From: Methanoplanus endosymbiosus
GTDB lineage: Archaea > Halobacteriota > Methanomicrobia > Methanomicrobiales > Methanomicrobiaceae
Assembly: GCF_024662215.1 (NCBI RefSeq)
Contig: NZ_CP096115.1
Coordinates: 806,001-870,000, forward strand
Direction of reading: 5' to 3'
Length of the DNA stretch: 64,000 bases
The notes beneath the pieces are model-generated. The model ran no database searches and was not told the DNA's origin. It saw only the letters and a program-made list of their open reading frames with translations. A program made the position numbers and the translations under genes. Positions within the stretch are counted from its first letter, which is position 1. Each line of letters begins with the position of its first letter. Shown here piece after piece: positions 51,132 to 59,061 of the stretch.

Positions 51132-51485
51132 TCAAAGCCTCCTGACAGCCTTCCTAAGCTCAGAAGAGAGAATATCAATCTCCCAAAATGTAGGCTCATC
51201 CATACCCCTCTTCTCAATACCAAAGTCTGTGGCAGTTATATGAAGGGCAGGCTCAACCCCAAGCGGCTTTAATCTCTTACATGAACAGCAGTCAGAACAT
51301 CCGTCAAAAACAACAACACTCACGCCATCCGGAAATAGACCAACACCTCCGTCACTCAGACCGGAAGCAGAGATATGCCCCTCAAAAACTCCGGGGTTTC
51401 TCTGCATAAAGGCCTTTGCAGCCTGCTCAGTAAGCTTACCTGTAATTGAAATACCCGAACAGGTCACAAGAATCTTATCAGCCAT
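51132..51485 (-). CDS. DGC-domain zinc-binding protein
   Basis: A 117-residue protein. The VTCSGIS loop near the start and the FDGCSDCCSCKRL block match the DGC (putative zinc-binding) family. It is the last gene of the leftward arsenic unit and is related to the N-terminal half of the product of 55344-56243. It probably binds or hands over a thiophilic metal or metalloid; this is inference from cysteines and context. Confidence 0.75.
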   Translation of the reverse strand: MADKILVTCSGISITGKLTEQAAKAFMQRNPGVFEGHISASGLSDGGVGLFPDGVSVVVFDGCSDCCSCKRLKPLGVEPALHITATDFGIEKRGMDEPTFWEIDILSSELRKAVRRL

Positions 51486-51557: not shown

Positions 51558-51983
51558 TCAGAAATCCCTTTCATCTCCAAACTCCACATCAATAAATTCA
51601 ATAATCTCATCCCTTACATTCCGGAAAATATCCATAATCTCCCCGTCACTGCCGGAAGCGGACGTTGGATCAGAAAAATCCCCGTGAATCCTCTTCTTTG
51701 CCCAGAGAAACATAGGGCATGTCTCCCTGGCACAATCACAGACAGTTACAATACAATCCATCCGGACTCCAAAAAACTCATCAATTCTCTTAGAACGATG
51801 AGAAGATATGTCAACGCCAATCTCATTCATAGCCCTGATGGCATAAGGATTTACGGAAGTAACCTCAGTTCCGGCTGAAAACGCCTCATATCTATCTCCA
51901 TAAGAAAAATTCAGATACCCTTCAGCCATCTGTGACCTTGCACTGTTATGAGTACATACAAACAGAACCTTCTTCTTCGTCAT
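51558..51983 (-). CDS. arsC: Arsenate reductase, low-molecular-weight phosphatase type
   Basis: A 141-residue protein with the phosphatase-type P-loop VCTHNSARSQMAEGYL and the redox cysteine pair in VCDCARETCPMF. It reduces arsenate to arsenite, in this family with electrons from thioredoxin. A small thioredoxin is encoded in the divergent half of the cluster. ATG 51983 is preferred to GTG 51992. It lies 47 bases after the ArsG-like gene. Confidence 0.88.
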   Translation of the reverse strand: MTKKKVLFVCTHNSARSQMAEGYLNFSYGDRYEAFSAGTEVTSVNPYAIRAMNEIGVDISSHRSKRIDEFFGVRMDCIVTVCDCARETCPMFLWAKKRIHGDFSDPTSASGSDGEIMDIFRNVRDEIIEFIDVEFGDERDF

Positions 51984-52030
51984 AACTATCACAACATCTC
52001 ACAGAATAATCATCATGAAATACAGAGAGA

Positions 52031-52753
52031 TCATAATAACATCCCTTTAATCCACAACACAATATAATAAACTCCTCCGGCAATGAAAATATAACCGGCA
52101 GCAGTCCGGATATACTTATCAGCCTCATTCACCCTGCCCATAAACTTCGCAGCACCCGAAATTCCGCCTGCAAGCAGCACAGAAACCAGGATTACCGGAA
52201 TCGCAGTACCAAGGGCAAAAGAGGCAGGAACAAAGAGGGCATCCGAATTCTTAATGGCAACCGGAATTAACATCCCAAAGAAGAGTGCTGCACTAAACGG
52301 GCAGAAACTCAGAGCAAAAATAAACCCAAGCCCGAAACTGCCAGAAATACCACGCTCAAAGAGCCAGACTTTCAGCCTGCCGGAATAATCCTTACCCGAG
52401 ATACCGGGAATATCAAAAGTGAACTCCTTTAAAATTACAACCCCGATAATCAGAAGAAACGGCCCAAGGAGCATCTCACCATAACTGCGTAAAAACGCTG
52501 AGACAGGTACAACACCAACTCCAAACCAGACAACCAGTGCTGCAACGAGGATATATCCAAAAGCCCGGCCACCGGCATAAAGAATTCCGGCTGACAAAGT
52601 CCTCCGGAAATTCTCACCCTTCCCTGAGATATAAGCAACTGCCGCTATATTGGTTGCAAGCGGACAGGGGCTGAAGGCCGTCATAAGCCCTATGAAAAAT
52701 GCGGCAATAACGGGAATGCTGCTCATTCCCATTGCCTCCATAAACCCTGTCAA
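52031..52753 (-). CDS. arsG: ArsG-family permease (CcdA/DsbD-like membrane protein)
   Basis: A 240-residue membrane protein with about six spans. The CcdA-like motif AFSPCPLATNIAA near residue 27 and the second half's LSFCPFSAALFFG give the paired cysteines. It matches the ArsG family tied to aromatic arsenical handling together with ArsF. It would carry electrons or export across the membrane. TTG 52753 overlaps the ArsF stop by 4 bases and has GGTGG 6 bases upstream; ATG 52741 is the alternative start. Confidence 0.82.
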   Translation of the reverse strand: MTGFMEAMGMSSIPVIAAFFIGLMTAFSPCPLATNIAAVAYISGKGENFRRTLSAGILYAGGRAFGYILVAALVVWFGVGVVPVSAFLRSYGEMLLGPFLLIIGVVILKEFTFDIPGISGKDYSGRLKVWLFERGISGSFGLGFIFALSFCPFSAALFFGMLIPVAIKNSDALFVPASFALGTAIPVILVSVLLAGGISGAAKFMGRVNEADKYIRTAAGYIFIAGGVYYIVLWIKGMLL

Positions 52754-53229
52754 CTACTGCCACCCAGCAGAGGATCAAGAATACCCCTCAGGTATTCTGA
52801 ATATGATTCAGGATCGCTGAGCCTGTACCAGGCACCAACGAGATCTTCCTTATAAAACTCACCCTCACTGTTATAGACACCAATCCAGAGCGAAGAACCG
52901 GCAGCTCCGTATCTCTCAGAGATCTCTGAATTCTCCTCATCATCAATATTGATGTGGGCAAATACGAGCCTTCCGGAATCAAGCTCAGGTTTGTAATACT
53001 TCTGTACAGTATCATTTGCAAGTTCACCAAGAACTACACATGAGTAACACTGGCTGTCAGTATAGAAATGATACAGCTCAATTTTTTCAGCACCGGAATT
53101 TGCTGTATCAGCAGAACCCGGCATGCTGCCATCTCTATTATCAGTACACCCCGCAATGAAAAAAACAGAGAGTAAAGTGATTATAATTCCGGTTTTAACA
53201 ATAATTCTCATCTTCAAACCAATCCTCAT
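52750..53229 (-). CDS. arsF: ArsF-like thioredoxin-fold lipoprotein
   Basis: A 159-residue exported protein. A signal with lipobox ends VFFIAGC, so the mature protein is lipid-anchored outside the cell. The thioredoxin-like part has DSQCYSCVVLGELA with a CxxC pair. Together with ArsG it resembles the ArsFG pair reported with aromatic arsenical resistance. A second ATG six codons in also fits. One of the 20-bp palindromes lies 19 bases upstream of the start. Confidence 0.8.
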   Translation of the reverse strand: MRIGLKMRIIVKTGIIITLLSVFFIAGCTDNRDGSMPGSADTANSGAEKIELYHFYTDSQCYSCVVLGELANDTVQKYYKPELDSGRLVFAHINIDDEENSEISERYGAAGSSLWIGVYNSEGEFYKEDLVGAWYRLSDPESYSEYLRGILDPLLGGSS

Positions 53230-53247: not shown

Positions 53248-53267
53248 ATTTCAAATTTTATTGAAAT
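53248..53267. promoter_or_regulatory. ArsR-type operator upstream of arsF
   Basis: ATTTCAAAT-TTTA-TTGAAAT, one of four copies of the same 20-bp palindrome near ars genes. It indicates a second promoter inside the leftward unit, under the same repressor. Confidence 0.65.
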
Positions 53268-53359
53268 ATTGATGGCATCTTAAAGGATATAAATATTATT
53301 ACAGTTCAGTCTCTGAAACAGTAAAAAAAGTAAGGATAAGATATCAGATTATAGGAATT

Positions 53360-53731
53360 TTACAGATTTCCGGATAAAAACCACTCTCTCCCCTTTTCAG
53401 TGAGATTATACACAATCCAGTTACCCTGCTGCTCCCCTGTAACAAATCCGGCTTTCTTCAGAACAGACAGATGATAAGAGAGCTTTGAATCAGCAATATC
53501 CATTATCACCTTTATAACACAGACACAGAGCGGCTGAACATTAAGCATTGCAAGTATCTTCATCCGGTTCTGATCGGCAAGTACACGATGAATGTTACAG
53601 ATGGCCTCAATATCTGTTTCAGCAGGCAGACACTCTTTTAATCCTTCAATTCCCCCACAGTCACAGAGTGACTTCTCTACACCCACGGGAAGTTCAGGAC
53701 AACCCTCTTCATTCAGGTTTTCTTCTGTCAT
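53360..53731 (-). CDS. arsR: ArsR-family arsenic-responsive repressor
   Basis: A 123-residue winged-helix protein. RVLADQNRMKILAMLNVQPLC, the CVC metalloid site in LCVCVI and SKLSYHLSVLKKAGFV are the ArsR helix-turn-helix hallmarks. An N-terminal tail carries four more cysteines (CPEL, CDCGG, CLPA), which could add to metal sensing. ArsR leaves DNA when arsenite binds. It sits between repeated operators and so controls itself and both halves of the cluster. Confidence 0.92.
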   Translation of the reverse strand: MTEENLNEEGCPELPVGVEKSLCDCGGIEGLKECLPAETDIEAICNIHRVLADQNRMKILAMLNVQPLCVCVIKVIMDIADSKLSYHLSVLKKAGFVTGEQQGNWIVYNLTEKGREWFLSGNL

Positions 53732-53746
53732 CTCTCAGCCATCCAC

Positions 53747-53766
53747 ATTTCAACAGATTATGAAAT
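53747..53766. promoter_or_regulatory. Degenerate ArsR-type operator just before arsR
   Basis: ATTTCAACA-GATT-ATGAAAT keeps the outer arms of the 20-bp palindrome but not the inner TTG. It begins 16 bases before the arsR start and would block that promoter. Confidence 0.5.
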
Positions 53767-53814
53767 ACCTGCATATATATGAGTGCCGATCTATGTTCAT
53801 ATTACCACACAGTC

Positions 53815-53887
53815 ATTTCAAATTATGTTGAAATAGTAAATTATATATTGTCCGGAACACAATAACTATTTCAAATCATATTGAAAT
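53815..53887. promoter_or_regulatory. Two ArsR-type operators in the divergent promoter
   Basis: ATTTCAAAT-TATG-TTGAAAT at 53815-53834 and ATTTCAAAT-CATA-TTGAAAT at 53868-53887 lie 53 bp apart, centre to centre, about five DNA turns, so two dimers would sit on one face. They serve arsR on the left and the permease on the right. Confidence 0.75.
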
Positions 53888-53982
53888 ATCCGGATCAGGA
53901 AAGTTAATGCAGCTTCAACGCTATGGGATGGATAAAGACATATGATTTACTGAAATTAAGATACACGGCCAAGGGGAAAATT

Positions 53983-55053
53983 ATGATTGATCTACTTATC
54001 GGCTCACTGATGACGGGCTGGGATACACTTGCAGGATATCTTGCCGAGCATGTGGTAACCTGTCTTATTCCGGCTTTTTTCATAGCCGGAGCAATAGCTG
54101 CTCTGGTTAAAAAAGAGGCAATACTGAAATATTTCAGTCCGGATGCAAAAAAAAGCACTGCATACGGGCTTGCATCCATATCAGGAACTGTCCTTGCGGT
54201 ATGCTCATGCACCATACTGCCGATGTTTGCCGGACTTTTCAAGCGTGGAAGCGGAATCGGGCCTGCAACGACATTTCTCTATGCCGGCCCCGCGATTAAC
54301 ATCCTGGCAATTGTCTATACTGCCAAAGTATTAGGATTTGACCTTGGAATTGCAAGGGCGGCCTTTGCAGTCGTTATGGCGATAATAATCGGGCTTATAA
54401 TGGCATTTCTCTTCAAATCGCATGATGCCGATACAAAGAAGAAGACAGCCGCCATGCCGTCTGTTCCTGCATCCGGTGATGCTGAAAAACCCCGGTGGGT
54501 AATTCCTGTATTCTTTGTCTTCCTTGTCGGAATTTTGATTGCCGGAACTGCACAGGCAGACTGGCTCATCAAATTTCCGGTGATATACGTCCTTACACTC
54601 GGAACTGCATTTCTGCTGATATACTACTTTGAGCGGGATGAGGTCACTGAGTGGGGGCTTGAGACTTGGGATCTTACAAAGAAGATCTTTCCGATACTGA
54701 TTATCGGAACATTCGCCCTTGGTATGCTCTCGTTCTTCCTGCCCGCCGAGACATTCCAGCCGTTCTTCGGTACAAACTCGCTTGGTTCGACCTTCCTTGC
54801 ATCAATTGTGGGAACGATTCTGTATATGCCGACCCTGCTTGAAGTTCCGGTTATAGGAACGACATTCGGCTATACATCAGGAGTTATGGCCGGAGGGCCT
54901 GCACTCGCACTCCTGCTCTCAGGGCCGAGTGTCAGCCTGCCCTCACTCCTTGTGATTTCAAAGGTTATGGGGCCAAAGAAGACCATTGTATATGCCGGAC
55001 TTGTAATCGTCTTTTCGGCAGTTGCGGGATTTATCTACGGAAATATTATCTGA
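53983..55053 (+). CDS. arsP: ArsP-like organoarsenical/metal permease
   Basis: A 356-residue membrane protein with about eight spans. The conserved SGTVLAVCSCTILPMFAGL block and the later PTLLEVPVIGTTFGYT repeat of the same theme match the ArsP/PF03773 permeases, which export trivalent organoarsenicals. AAGGGG lies 6 bases before ATG 53983; the frame reaches back to 53923 without a better start. It lies behind two ArsR-type operators. Confidence 0.85.
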   Translation: MIDLLIGSLMTGWDTLAGYLAEHVVTCLIPAFFIAGAIAALVKKEAILKYFSPDAKKSTAYGLASISGTVLAVCSCTILPMFAGLFKRGSGIGPATTFLYAGPAINILAIVYTAKVLGFDLGIARAAFAVVMAIIIGLIMAFLFKSHDADTKKKTAAMPSVPASGDAEKPRWVIPVFFVFLVGILIAGTAQADWLIKFPVIYVLTLGTAFLLIYYFERDEVTEWGLETWDLTKKIFPILIIGTFALGMLSFFLPAETFQPFFGTNSLGSTFLASIVGTILYMPTLLEVPVIGTTFGYTSGVMAGGPALALLLSGPSVSLPSLLVISKVMGPKKTIVYAGLVIVFSAVAGFIYGNII

Positions 55054-55103: not shown

Positions 55104-55340
55104 ATGAAGATTGAAGTACTTGGAACCGGATGCTTAAAATGCAAGAGACTTATGAAGAATGTCGAAAAAGCTGTCGCAGAGTCAGGTGTATCAGCAGAGA
55201 TTGTAAAGGTTGAGGATATAACGGCAATTATGGAGAGGGATGTCATGCTCACACCTGCACTGATGATAGACGGTGAACTGAAGGTCTCCGGAAGGGTTGC
55301 AGACGTTAAGGAAATAACAGAGCTTATAGGCGGCAACTAA
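55104..55340 (+). CDS. Small thioredoxin-like redox protein
   Basis: A 78-residue protein of the short archaeal thioredoxin family, with the active site GTGCLKCKRL and TPALMIDGELKVSG. It is likely the electron donor for the arsenate reductase in the same cluster or a metal-thiol carrier (inference). AGGAATG lies upstream. The next gene starts 3 bases after its stop. Its last 60 bases are exactly repeated at 56561-56623. Confidence 0.88.
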   Translation: MKIEVLGTGCLKCKRLMKNVEKAVAESGVSAEIVKVEDITAIMERDVMLTPALMIDGELKVSGRVADVKEITELIGGN

Positions 55341-55343
55341 GGA

Positions 55344-56243
55344 ATGTCTGATATTTTACAGTGCAGCTGTACCTGCGGTGATGCACCGGCCGGGAAGAAG
55401 AGAATAATCTTCTCCTGTTCCGGGGCCTCAAATGTCGGTGAACTCTCCAATGCTGCGGCTGTCACCCTTACAAAGGAGGGTTTTGGCAGCAAGGCATGTA
55501 CGGCCTCACTTGCAGTCAAGACACCTTCCGTTATGAAAAAGGCCAAAGATGCGGATGAGATTGTAGTAATAGACGGCTGTCCGGTCGCCTGTGCCGGACA
55601 GATTGCAGAGAATGCCGGAGTGGATGTGGATCAGTATATCATAATAACAAAACTCGGCATAAAGAAGACTGCCGATATGGATATTATTGAAGATGATCTT
55701 GAGACTGTCGTATCTGCCGCATGGGAAGGAAAGTCCCTCTGCCTGGAAGACGATGAAATTCCTGAAGAGGAAATTTCCGGGGATGCAGGATGTACATGCG
55801 GCGGTGGATGCGGGTGTAATTCCGGGGATGAAAATAAAACCGGAGTTTTAACTGTTGAATGGAGGCATGTCGGAGAGGATATAGATTCAACCTGTAAGCG
55901 CTGCTCTGCTACCGGAAACACACTTACAAAAGTTCTGGCTGAGATTGAACCTCTGTTCTATGAAATGGGAATAAAAACAGAGATTACAGAGACTGTACTT
56001 CCAGACGAAAGGATAGATGAGTCCAACATCATACTCTTCAACGGCGTACCGCTTGAAGATCTCATTGAGGATATGACAGTGACAAAAACTCCCTGTGCTT
56101 CCTGTGCCTGCATCACAGGAGACGATGATGTCGAGTGCAGGGCTGTTGATTACGGGGGAGAACTGTATGAAGCTGTTCCGGCTGAAATCATCCGGAAAGC
56201 TGCATTAAAGGCTCTGGAGAACTCCGGTCAGTACCGGACATAA
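55344..56243 (+). CDS. DGC zinc-binding domain fused to DUF2703
   Basis: A 299-residue, cysteine-rich protein. Residues 1-135 form a DGC domain (IFSCSGASNVGELSN, VIDGCPVACAGQI). A flexible linker holds CTCGGGCGCNSG, a likely metal site. Residues 170-299 match DUF2703: VEWRHVGEDIDSTCKRCSAT and TPCASCACITGDD. The AAGGA ribosome site overlaps the stop of the thioredoxin gene. Its cluster suggests metalloid handling or transfer to the permease; the activity is unknown. Confidence 0.82.
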   Translation: MSDILQCSCTCGDAPAGKKRIIFSCSGASNVGELSNAAAVTLTKEGFGSKACTASLAVKTPSVMKKAKDADEIVVIDGCPVACAGQIAENAGVDVDQYIIITKLGIKKTADMDIIEDDLETVVSAAWEGKSLCLEDDEIPEEEISGDAGCTCGGGCGCNSGDENKTGVLTVEWRHVGEDIDSTCKRCSATGNTLTKVLAEIEPLFYEMGIKTEITETVLPDERIDESNIILFNGVPLEDLIEDMTVTKTPCASCACITGDDDVECRAVDYGGELYEAVPAEIIRKAALKALENSGQYRT

Positions 56244-57856: not shown

Positions 57857-58969
57857 TTATATTCCAATTAGATTCTGTCTATCTAAAGCAAATTTCCTGA
57901 TATTTATCGCGGCATTGATATCCCGGTCATGATGTATCCCACAATCCGGACAAATCCAGTCTCTATCAGATAAAGTCAAATCCCTGTTGTAATATCCACA
58001 TTCACTACAGATTTTTGTAGATGGTTCAAATTGTCCAATCCGTAAGATAGTTTTACCTTGTTTTTGTGCTTTATATTCCAATTGAGTAACAAATGAACTC
58101 CATGATGCATCAGCAATATGTTGTGCCAGTTTATGATTTTTTAACATCCCTTCAACATTCAAAGTTTCCAGTGCAATTGCTTGGTTCTCGCATACTAATC
58201 TAAAAGAGAGTTTGTGCTGGAAATCGCTTCTTTGATTGTGAATTTTTTCATGAATTTTTGCTACTGCATTTTTTGCTTTATTTCTGTTGTTAGAACCTTT
58301 TTGTTTTCTACTCAATCGTTTTTGCAACACTTTCAGTCGGAGAAGTGACTGCTTCAAATATCGGGGATTGTCAATCTTTTCCCCATTGGAAAGTATTGCA
58401 AAATCTTTGATACCTACATCAACACCCATAGTTGTATTTACATCAAAACATTGTGCAGGAGGTTGCTCCTGTCCATCATCTATCAGAATACTAATGAAAA
58501 ATTTGCCCGTTGAGGTGACTGACACTGTTGCAGTTTTTTCAACTCCTTCATATTTCCTGTGTAATTTTGTTTTAACCCATCCAATTTTAGGTAATTTAAT
58601 TTTATGAGTATCAAAATTCACAATATAATGTTGTGGAACTGAAAATGACTGCACTGGATTTTTTCGGGATTTGAATTTTGGAAATCCTTTCTTTTCCCGG
58701 AAGAAACGAGTAAATGCATTCTCAAGATTTAACAATGCACTCTGTATTGATTGCGAATTAACATCTTTCATCCAATCATGCTCTGATTTCAAATCAGGTA
58801 GCATTTTTTGTAATGCAAATCTCGATATTGATTTTCCATCTGTTTCATAAGTTCGGATCTTATTTTCCAGACCCCAATTGTAGATAAACCTACAGGCACC
58901 GAAATGCTGAAAGAACATTTTCTCCTGTTCTTTGTTAGGATAGATTCGGTATTTGTAGGCTCTCAACAT
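57857..58969 (-). CDS. tnpB: TnpB RNA-guided endonuclease
   Basis: A 370-residue TnpB from ATG 58969, the usual opening MLRAYKYRIYPNKEQ (a TTG at 58990 would add seven). The RuvC residues are complete: D184 in GVDVGIKDFAI, E268 in LETLNVEGML and D350 in DRDINAAINI. The zinc finger has CSECGYYN and CPDCG. TnpB cuts DNA guided by an RNA from the element's end and helps keep the element in place. It is intact, so probably active. Confidence 0.93.
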   Translation of the reverse strand: MLRAYKYRIYPNKEQEKMFFQHFGACRFIYNWGLENKIRTYETDGKSISRFALQKMLPDLKSEHDWMKDVNSQSIQSALLNLENAFTRFFREKKGFPKFKSRKNPVQSFSVPQHYIVNFDTHKIKLPKIGWVKTKLHRKYEGVEKTATVSVTSTGKFFISILIDDGQEQPPAQCFDVNTTMGVDVGIKDFAILSNGEKIDNPRYLKQSLLRLKVLQKRLSRKQKGSNNRNKAKNAVAKIHEKIHNQRSDFQHKLSFRLVCENQAIALETLNVEGMLKNHKLAQHIADASWSSFVTQLEYKAQKQGKTILRIGQFEPSTKICSECGYYNRDLTLSDRDWICPDCGIHHDRDINAAINIRKFALDRQNLIGI

Positions 58970-59061
58970 ATATATTTGGTTTGATTTCAACCCCCCATAT
59001 ATTTTTTGGTAAAACTACAATTACGAAATATATATATGAGAACAAAGATGATGTCGCTTAC

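Follow-up and report, generated by a model that had tools for sequence, protein, structure and literature searches.

Paired palindromes around a TATA-like box are predicted ArsR operators at an archaeal ars-type gene cluster

In an ars-type gene cluster of Methanoplanus endosymbiosus, arsR and a permease gene diverge from an intergenic region that carries repeated copies of one palindrome, and a further copy precedes arsF. The locus raises the questions of which protein reads these sites, which promoters they control and how far the regulon reaches. We analysed the surrounding 64,000 nucleotides (the window, to which coordinates refer unless stated otherwise), the complete genome and related loci. 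Comparison of these sequences makes it highly likely that the palindromes are ArsR operators, predicted to repress the divergent arsR and efflux promoters together with a separate arsF promoter. The genes of the cluster are listed below, with scores in bits against the model cut-offs.

51132..51485, minus strand: stand-alone DGC-domain protein (PF08859, 63.9 against 27)
51558..51992, minus strand: ArsC-like low-molecular-weight phosphatase of the arsenate-reductase type (PF01451, LMWPc, 58.4 against 23.2)
52031..52753, minus strand: ArsG-family membrane protein (NF040495, 248.9, above the curated cut-off of 200)
52750..53229, minus strand: ArsF-family protein (NF040494, 91.7, above the curated cut-off of 60)
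53360..53731, minus strand: arsR1, ArsR/SmtB-family repressor with Cys-Val-Cys in helix 3 (HTH_5, HTH_metalloreg)
53983..55053, plus strand: ArsP_1-family permease (PF03773, 243.6 against 32.3)
55104..55340, plus strand: MTH895/ArsE-family small thioredoxin-like protein (TIGR00412, 103.6 against 62)
55344..56243, plus strand: DGC and DUF2703 two-domain protein (domain search)

The ArsC-like protein scored below the cut-off of the thioredoxin-coupled arsenate reductase equivalog (TIGR02691, 133 against 174.3 bits). The permease fell below both equivalog models that it matched (SaoE, 96.7 against 325; SO_0444, 84.4 against 300), and its nearest named ArsP relatives belong to Methanomicrobiaceae. 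Its start was placed at ATG 53983, which is common to the sister genome G001 (L070:11165; by eye), the longest ORF beginning at 53923.

Palindromic sites in the cluster and the genome

The sites and the TATA-like boxes near them are arranged as follows.

53248..53267, no strand: predicted operator at the arsF promoter, exact ATTTCAA-N6-TTGAAAT (sequence match)
53286..53293, minus strand: TATA-like box of the putative arsF promoter, 32 bp from the centre of operator 53248 (by eye)
53747..53766, no strand: degenerate predicted operator nearest arsR, with one core change giving the half-site TTTCAT in the arsR orientation
53772..53781, minus strand: TATA-like box of the putative promoter proximal to arsR; the degenerate operator is centred about 20 bp away (by eye)
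53815..53834, no strand: arsR-side predicted operator of the conserved pair, exact (sequence match and relatives)
53841..53848, no strand: TATA-like box lying between the two operators of the pair (columns conserved across 30 non-redundant pairs)
53868..53887, no strand: permease-side predicted operator of the pair, exact (sequence match and relatives)

Sequence matching bore out the three exact copies and the degenerate one at the positions given by a first-pass annotation, as well as its 53-bp distance between the central copies, 53815 and 53868, measured start to start. The motif as drawn there needed correction: the palindrome stands, and the AT that followed CAA belongs to the spacer, which differs in other copies. 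Thus ATTTCAA-N6-TTGAAAT is a symmetric, conserved 20-mer core with a variable 6-bp spacer. Markov models of orders 1–3 trained on the window predict about 0.003–0.005 exact 20-mers per window, against the three found.

The site is also rare in the genome (3.16 Mb, one contig); the annotation had named a motif common across the genome as a finding that would refute it. The exact 20-mer occurs five times, against 0.13–0.23 expected (Markov orders 1–3), and all five copies are intergenic and upstream of genes. Besides the three in the window, one precedes a TauE/SafE permease gene (PF01925, 184.8 bits) that starts 16 bp past the end of the site, and one lies between a second ArsR gene and a YeeE/YedE pair encoding two Sulf_transp proteins (PF04143). 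At the latter locus, a further copy with one mismatch in the 18-mer stands 53 bp on and overlaps the ArsR start codon. The earlier view that four copies define the regulon was thus too narrow, the regulon being wider than the cluster. The shorter 18-mer TTTCAA-N6-TTGAAA has nine exact copies against 1.5–2.1 expected (Markov orders 1–3), comprising the same five intergenic sites and four inside ORFs. Four 20-mers carry one mismatch, namely the 53747 copy, one in an ORF (genome position 327200) and two intergenic ones (178206 and 414871). These two (L009:3207-3226 and L011:2872-2891) precede genes that, by eye, are not of the ars or sulfur kind; they may be chance occurrences or sites of unknown targets.

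Paired sites around one TATA-like box

A search of 60 genomes (host included) with ArsR1 gave matches in 50, and the regions around all matches but one (G027), together with L008 and the window, yielded 69 ArsR-like ORFs, among which related loci are not independent. Upstream of 39 of them stands a pair of sites spaced 51–53 bp, their mismatches totalling three or fewer (18 pairs at 52 bp, 14 at 53 and 7 at 51). The other 30 comprise nine with single sites, five with pairs at 48 bp, and 16 with no such site upstream, the third ArsR of the host among these; L061 and L082 carry sites elsewhere in the cluster, though none upstream of the ArsR-like gene. Counting 18-mers with at most one mismatch, the 300 bp upstream of ArsR-like genes carry 3.8 sites per kb and the rest of the loci 0.04 per kb, and 48 of the 69 regions have a site within 450 bp.

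The pair recurs in the class and in some Thermoplasmatota. Sought as an exact pair of TTCAA-N6-TTGAA cores, it turned up in 40 of the 232 class genomes searched, and its reversed control in 0 of 232. A sample of the phylum gave the pair pattern in 21 of 392 genomes, with 20 of 83 inside the class and 1 of 309 outside. This scarcity outside the class, like the 16 ArsR-like genes with no upstream site, weighs against the operator reading. Of 80 named ArsP-centred loci, drawn in part from these genomes, a pair at 48 or 51–53 bp is present in 35 (control 0/80), and 194 single sites were counted against 10 for the control. Within this set, the pair is absent from all nine Methanomassiliicoccales loci, while six of the seven other loci that we place in Thermoplasmatota, DHVE2 and Haladaptatiplasma being among the groups so placed, carry it (L213, L215, L217, L222, L223 and L226; absent from L230). 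Six relatives hold 15 exact 20-mers, against none for the control; ArsR/ArsP, YeeE or TauE genes account for 13 of these, and of the other two, one falls within an ORF and one precedes a gene that looks universal-stress-like (by eye). Separately, in a record titled Clostridia bacterium (L197), a 53-bp operator pair accompanies an ArsP gene of 68% identity; the record is possibly a misbinned archaeal contig.

A subgroup of ArsR/ArsP loci (L102, L103, L104, L106 and L109) combines 48-bp spacing with a TTCAA-N6-TTGAA core whose outer bases are changed. Regarding these loci as site-less was rejected, given their cores and a clear TATA-like box.

Alignment of 30 non-redundant pairs revealed one conserved A/T box at columns 8–12 from the arsR-side operator. 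Its best five-column A+T fraction reaches 0.98, the highest value among 2000 shuffles being 0.77, and all five columns are A/T in 27 of the 30. A symmetric central box was rejected, since, measured between centres, the box lies about 20 bp from the arsR-side operator and 31–33 bp from the other. In the 48-bp pairs, the corresponding distances are 17/31 and 20/28 (by eye) instead of an exact 20/32, so that strict helical phasing is not required, which weakens phasing as the cause of the spacing of about 52 bp.

Given these distances, each operator should cover a start site. A passage of PMC3729527 places a methanogen TATA box 27 nt before a mapped start; if this value is valid here, both starts fall inside operators. 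We thus propose a putative model for the divergent region. Dimers of an ArsR-type repressor would occupy the palindromes as operators, transcription would start about 27 bp from the shared box in both directions, and each paired operator would cover one start, so that a bound dimer may block the transcription machinery both ways. The third, systematically degenerate operator would cover a second arsR promoter, and the separate operator with its own TATA-like box would control the arsF-arsG-arsC side.

Read by eye, the distance from site to box is 32 bp for arsF and for the sister-genome ACR3 gene, 30 bp for three TauE genes, and 20 bp for the degenerate copy; ArsF sites in four other relatives lie 33–38 bp from a box. 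Effector promoters accordingly cluster near 30–33 bp, some being longer, and arsR promoters near 20 bp. The first-pass suggestion that arsF has its own controlled promoter gains from this, because 32 bp separate the copy there from a TATA-like box, nearly the 33 bp of the permease side (by eye). Operator 53248..53267 is predicted to cover the arsF transcription start.

The degenerate copy near arsR also recurs. A third site with at most two mismatches was found near arsR in 15 of the 22 pair loci with room for it, against 0.5 expected, several of these loci being close relatives so that the counts are not independent. The same half-site TTTCAT is present in 14 of the 15, and at that base of the half-site, the pair's far operator carries A in 38 of 39 cases. 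The 53747 copy is thus a conserved operator, and judged by its sequence probably a weaker, autoregulatory one.

This third site gives some weight to a different, rather unlikely reading, in which the box between the operators drives the efflux operon only. The promoter next to arsR, at the degenerate operator, would then supply arsR itself, and the arsR-side operator of the pair would cover a B-recognition element instead of a start. Two observations would fit this: the third operator near arsR, which recurs in 15 of the 22 loci with room for it and in the host has its own box, and an AA resembling a B-recognition element that is conserved (23/30) two bases ahead of the box when read towards the efflux genes. 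However, there is no space for a further arsR promoter in the ArsR2/YeeE loci and in several others, whose proximal operator begins no more than 25 bp from the start of the ArsR ORF. In the five ArsR2/YeeE loci, this operator even overlaps the ArsR start, so that the ArsR promoter has room only between the operators.

The same layout bears on whether the palindromes could instead be RNA hairpins in the leaders. Each exact copy can indeed form a stem of 8 bp (−4.6 to −5.2 kcal/mol) that outscores all of 200 shuffles, but a DNA palindrome gives such a fold by construction, the stems are weak, and the degenerate copy is unremarkable (z −0.95; 34 of 200 shuffles as good). Moreover, the sites are located at the predicted start and not downstream of it, and near-fixed spacing around a TATA-like box would have no obvious reason in RNA. 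We consider the hairpin explanation hardly credible.

Repressors and candidate signals

ArsR1 has a winged-helix ArsR domain (HTH_5, 43.1 against 22 bits; HTH_metalloreg, 72.8 against 55). Its Cys-Val-Cys comprises residues 69–71, and all 69 of the ArsR-like proteins aligned have both Cys of the CxC. Such a helix-3 pair is the core of the arsenic site in As(III)-type ArsR and is also used by metal sensors of the CadC type. E. coli ArsR has a third Cys in helix 3, which is absent from ArsR1, where residue 74 is Lys; the N-terminal Cys 23 and 25 might substitute for it. The nearest solved relatives of ArsR1 by sequence are CadC-type and other ArsR-family proteins, the arsenic ArsR 6j0e being a weak match.

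The second ArsR of the genome is 53% identical to ArsR1 over 92 residues and lacks the N-terminal Cys pair. The presumed recognition helix contains SKLSYHL in both proteins, consistent with a shared operator. The first-pass proposal that the ArsR encoded here recognises the site agrees, on the sequence record, with a palindrome that tracks ArsR-like genes across an archaeal order; assignment to this one repressor does not follow, because the second ArsR adjoins a copy of the same site. With the operator before TauE/SafE and, beside the second ArsR, YeeE/YedE, the two repressors may share targets.

That a DNA-binding protein other than ArsR owns the site is very improbable, given that the site follows ArsR-like genes across the order and beyond, and that core and spacer are common to the bacterial ArsR consensus. 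A passage of PMC9137774 gives the core of the bacterial site as ATCAA-N6-TTGAT. The TCAA-N6-TTGA within it recurs in all three exact copies here, with the 6-bp spacer, the dyad symmetry and an ArsR-family repressor likewise in common, so the core is of a known kind. The archaeal site differs from the bacterial one described there in its outer base (T for A, giving TTCAA), in its extension to TTTCAA-N6-TTGAAA, and in its setting, an archaeal TATA-type promoter with two operators near-fixed around one box.

In the proposed mechanism, arsenite or another thiol-seeking metalloid would bind the Cys-Val-Cys of ArsR and lift repression, upon which the permease, the thioredoxin-like protein, ArsF and ArsG, and the reductase-like protein would be made. 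It is conceivable, though distinctly unlikely, that operator and repressors are right but the repressors chiefly sense something other than arsenic. Since sulfur-type transporters make up two of the targets (TauE/SafE, PF01925; Sulf_transp, PF04143), a sulfur species (sulfide, persulfide or sulfite) or another thiol-binding metal comes into question; the lack of the N-terminal Cys pair in the second ArsR points the same way, and a portion of PMC12423496 describes sulfane-sulfur-responsive ArsR-type repressors. Against this, ArsR1 is encoded among ArsF, ArsG, an ArsC-like protein and an ArsP_1 permease, and SBF/ACR3-type proteins occur in the same loci in relatives. The invariant helix-3 CxC also argues for arsenic, though it is shared with the CadC-type sensors.

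The SBF/ACR3-type assignment comes from a cluster of 14 related proteins in 14 relatives' loci, two members of which were tested and both matched this type. In the sister genome, such a gene directly follows an ArsR gene, with a one-mismatch site ahead of it. The query with four ACR3 matches in the sister genome found none in the host genome or in G013.

Two further features of the sister genome were observed by eye. A ferredoxin-thioredoxin-reductase-like gene and a second permease gene (L070:9857-11101) lie between the operators and ArsP; inserted genes of this kind may explain the long arsR-to-ArsP distances in other loci. An exact operator (L070:7862-7879) stands about 110 bp before a universal-stress-like gene, which is followed by a cation-efflux-like gene.

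Wider targets and known systems

Six of the ArsR loci encode a protein that we take to be HgcA from its signature. The one of these proteins that was tested matches CdhD (PF03599). In six Methanomicrobiales genomes, an operator, mostly as a pair, lies between arsR and the HgcA-type gene, the latter being of the mercury-methylation kind (L113:4882-4951 in G041; L245 and L249:2570-2639; L080, L081 and L085). The pair is present in G041, G175, G140 and G023, and in G006 with two mismatches in one member; G017 has a single site. A scan of 30 hgcA loci, from the 85 class genomes with a match, covered at most about 1.5 kb on each side and was often ended by contig ends; within these limits, 27 of the 30 have no operator, and hgcA was rejected as a general target. 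The host genome gave no match for hgcA.

Related arrangements are known in part. PMC10349881, in one of its passages, reports arsR upstream of hgcA in 14 genomes, of which one, of Methanosphaerula, is archaeal; it also cites ArsR-like control of hgcAB in Pseudodesulfovibrio. That case resembles ours in having ArsR beside hgcA and differs in being bacterial; ours concerns an archaeal operator, which some relatives of a host without an hgcA match carry between arsR and hgcA. As described in part of PMC7994332, Pseudomonas putida ArsR1 and ArsR2 have similar, non-identical operators, and each can repress the other's promoter. Two ArsR paralogues with similar operators in one genome are common to both cases; in P. 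putida both serve ars clusters, whereas here the second lies beside YeeE/YedE, and cross-talk is putative. For the autoregulation of MsvR in methanogens, including the divergent promoter pair of M. thermautotrophicus, a section of PMC3729527 likewise locates repressor boxes at the start site or at the BRE/TATA, with another regulator and another box sequence. Haloarchaeal metal resistance is the subject of PMC3600143. No archaeal ArsR operator of this paired layout was found in the open-access literature searched, as far as the accessible portions of those sources extend. The operator sequence is thus of the ordinary ArsR kind, and the conserved archaeal paired layout and the wider targets appear to be new.

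We put forward only tentatively, and with less than even confidence, a broader reading of these data as a portable archaeal bidirectional switch. In it, one TATA core would be read both ways between two near-fixed ArsR operators, with a weakened third for autoregulation; the layout would be common to Methanomicrobiales and some Thermoplasmatota, and sulfur-type transporters would have acquired the operator, as would hgcA in several relatives. If true, the uptake by hgcA would put archaeal mercury methylation under arsenic control. The layout calls for a test of an archaeal TATA core working in both directions under one repressor, and the targets raise the question of arsenic control over sulfur-type transporters and, in some methanogens, over mercury methylation. 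Site and layout are precise enough for regulon prediction by scanning.

Finally, near-identical OrfB/TnpB-like transposon-type genes (by eye) were observed in the window at 57857-58990, beside the third ArsR gene (L053:4084-5217) and beside the TauE gene (L007:3892-4197).
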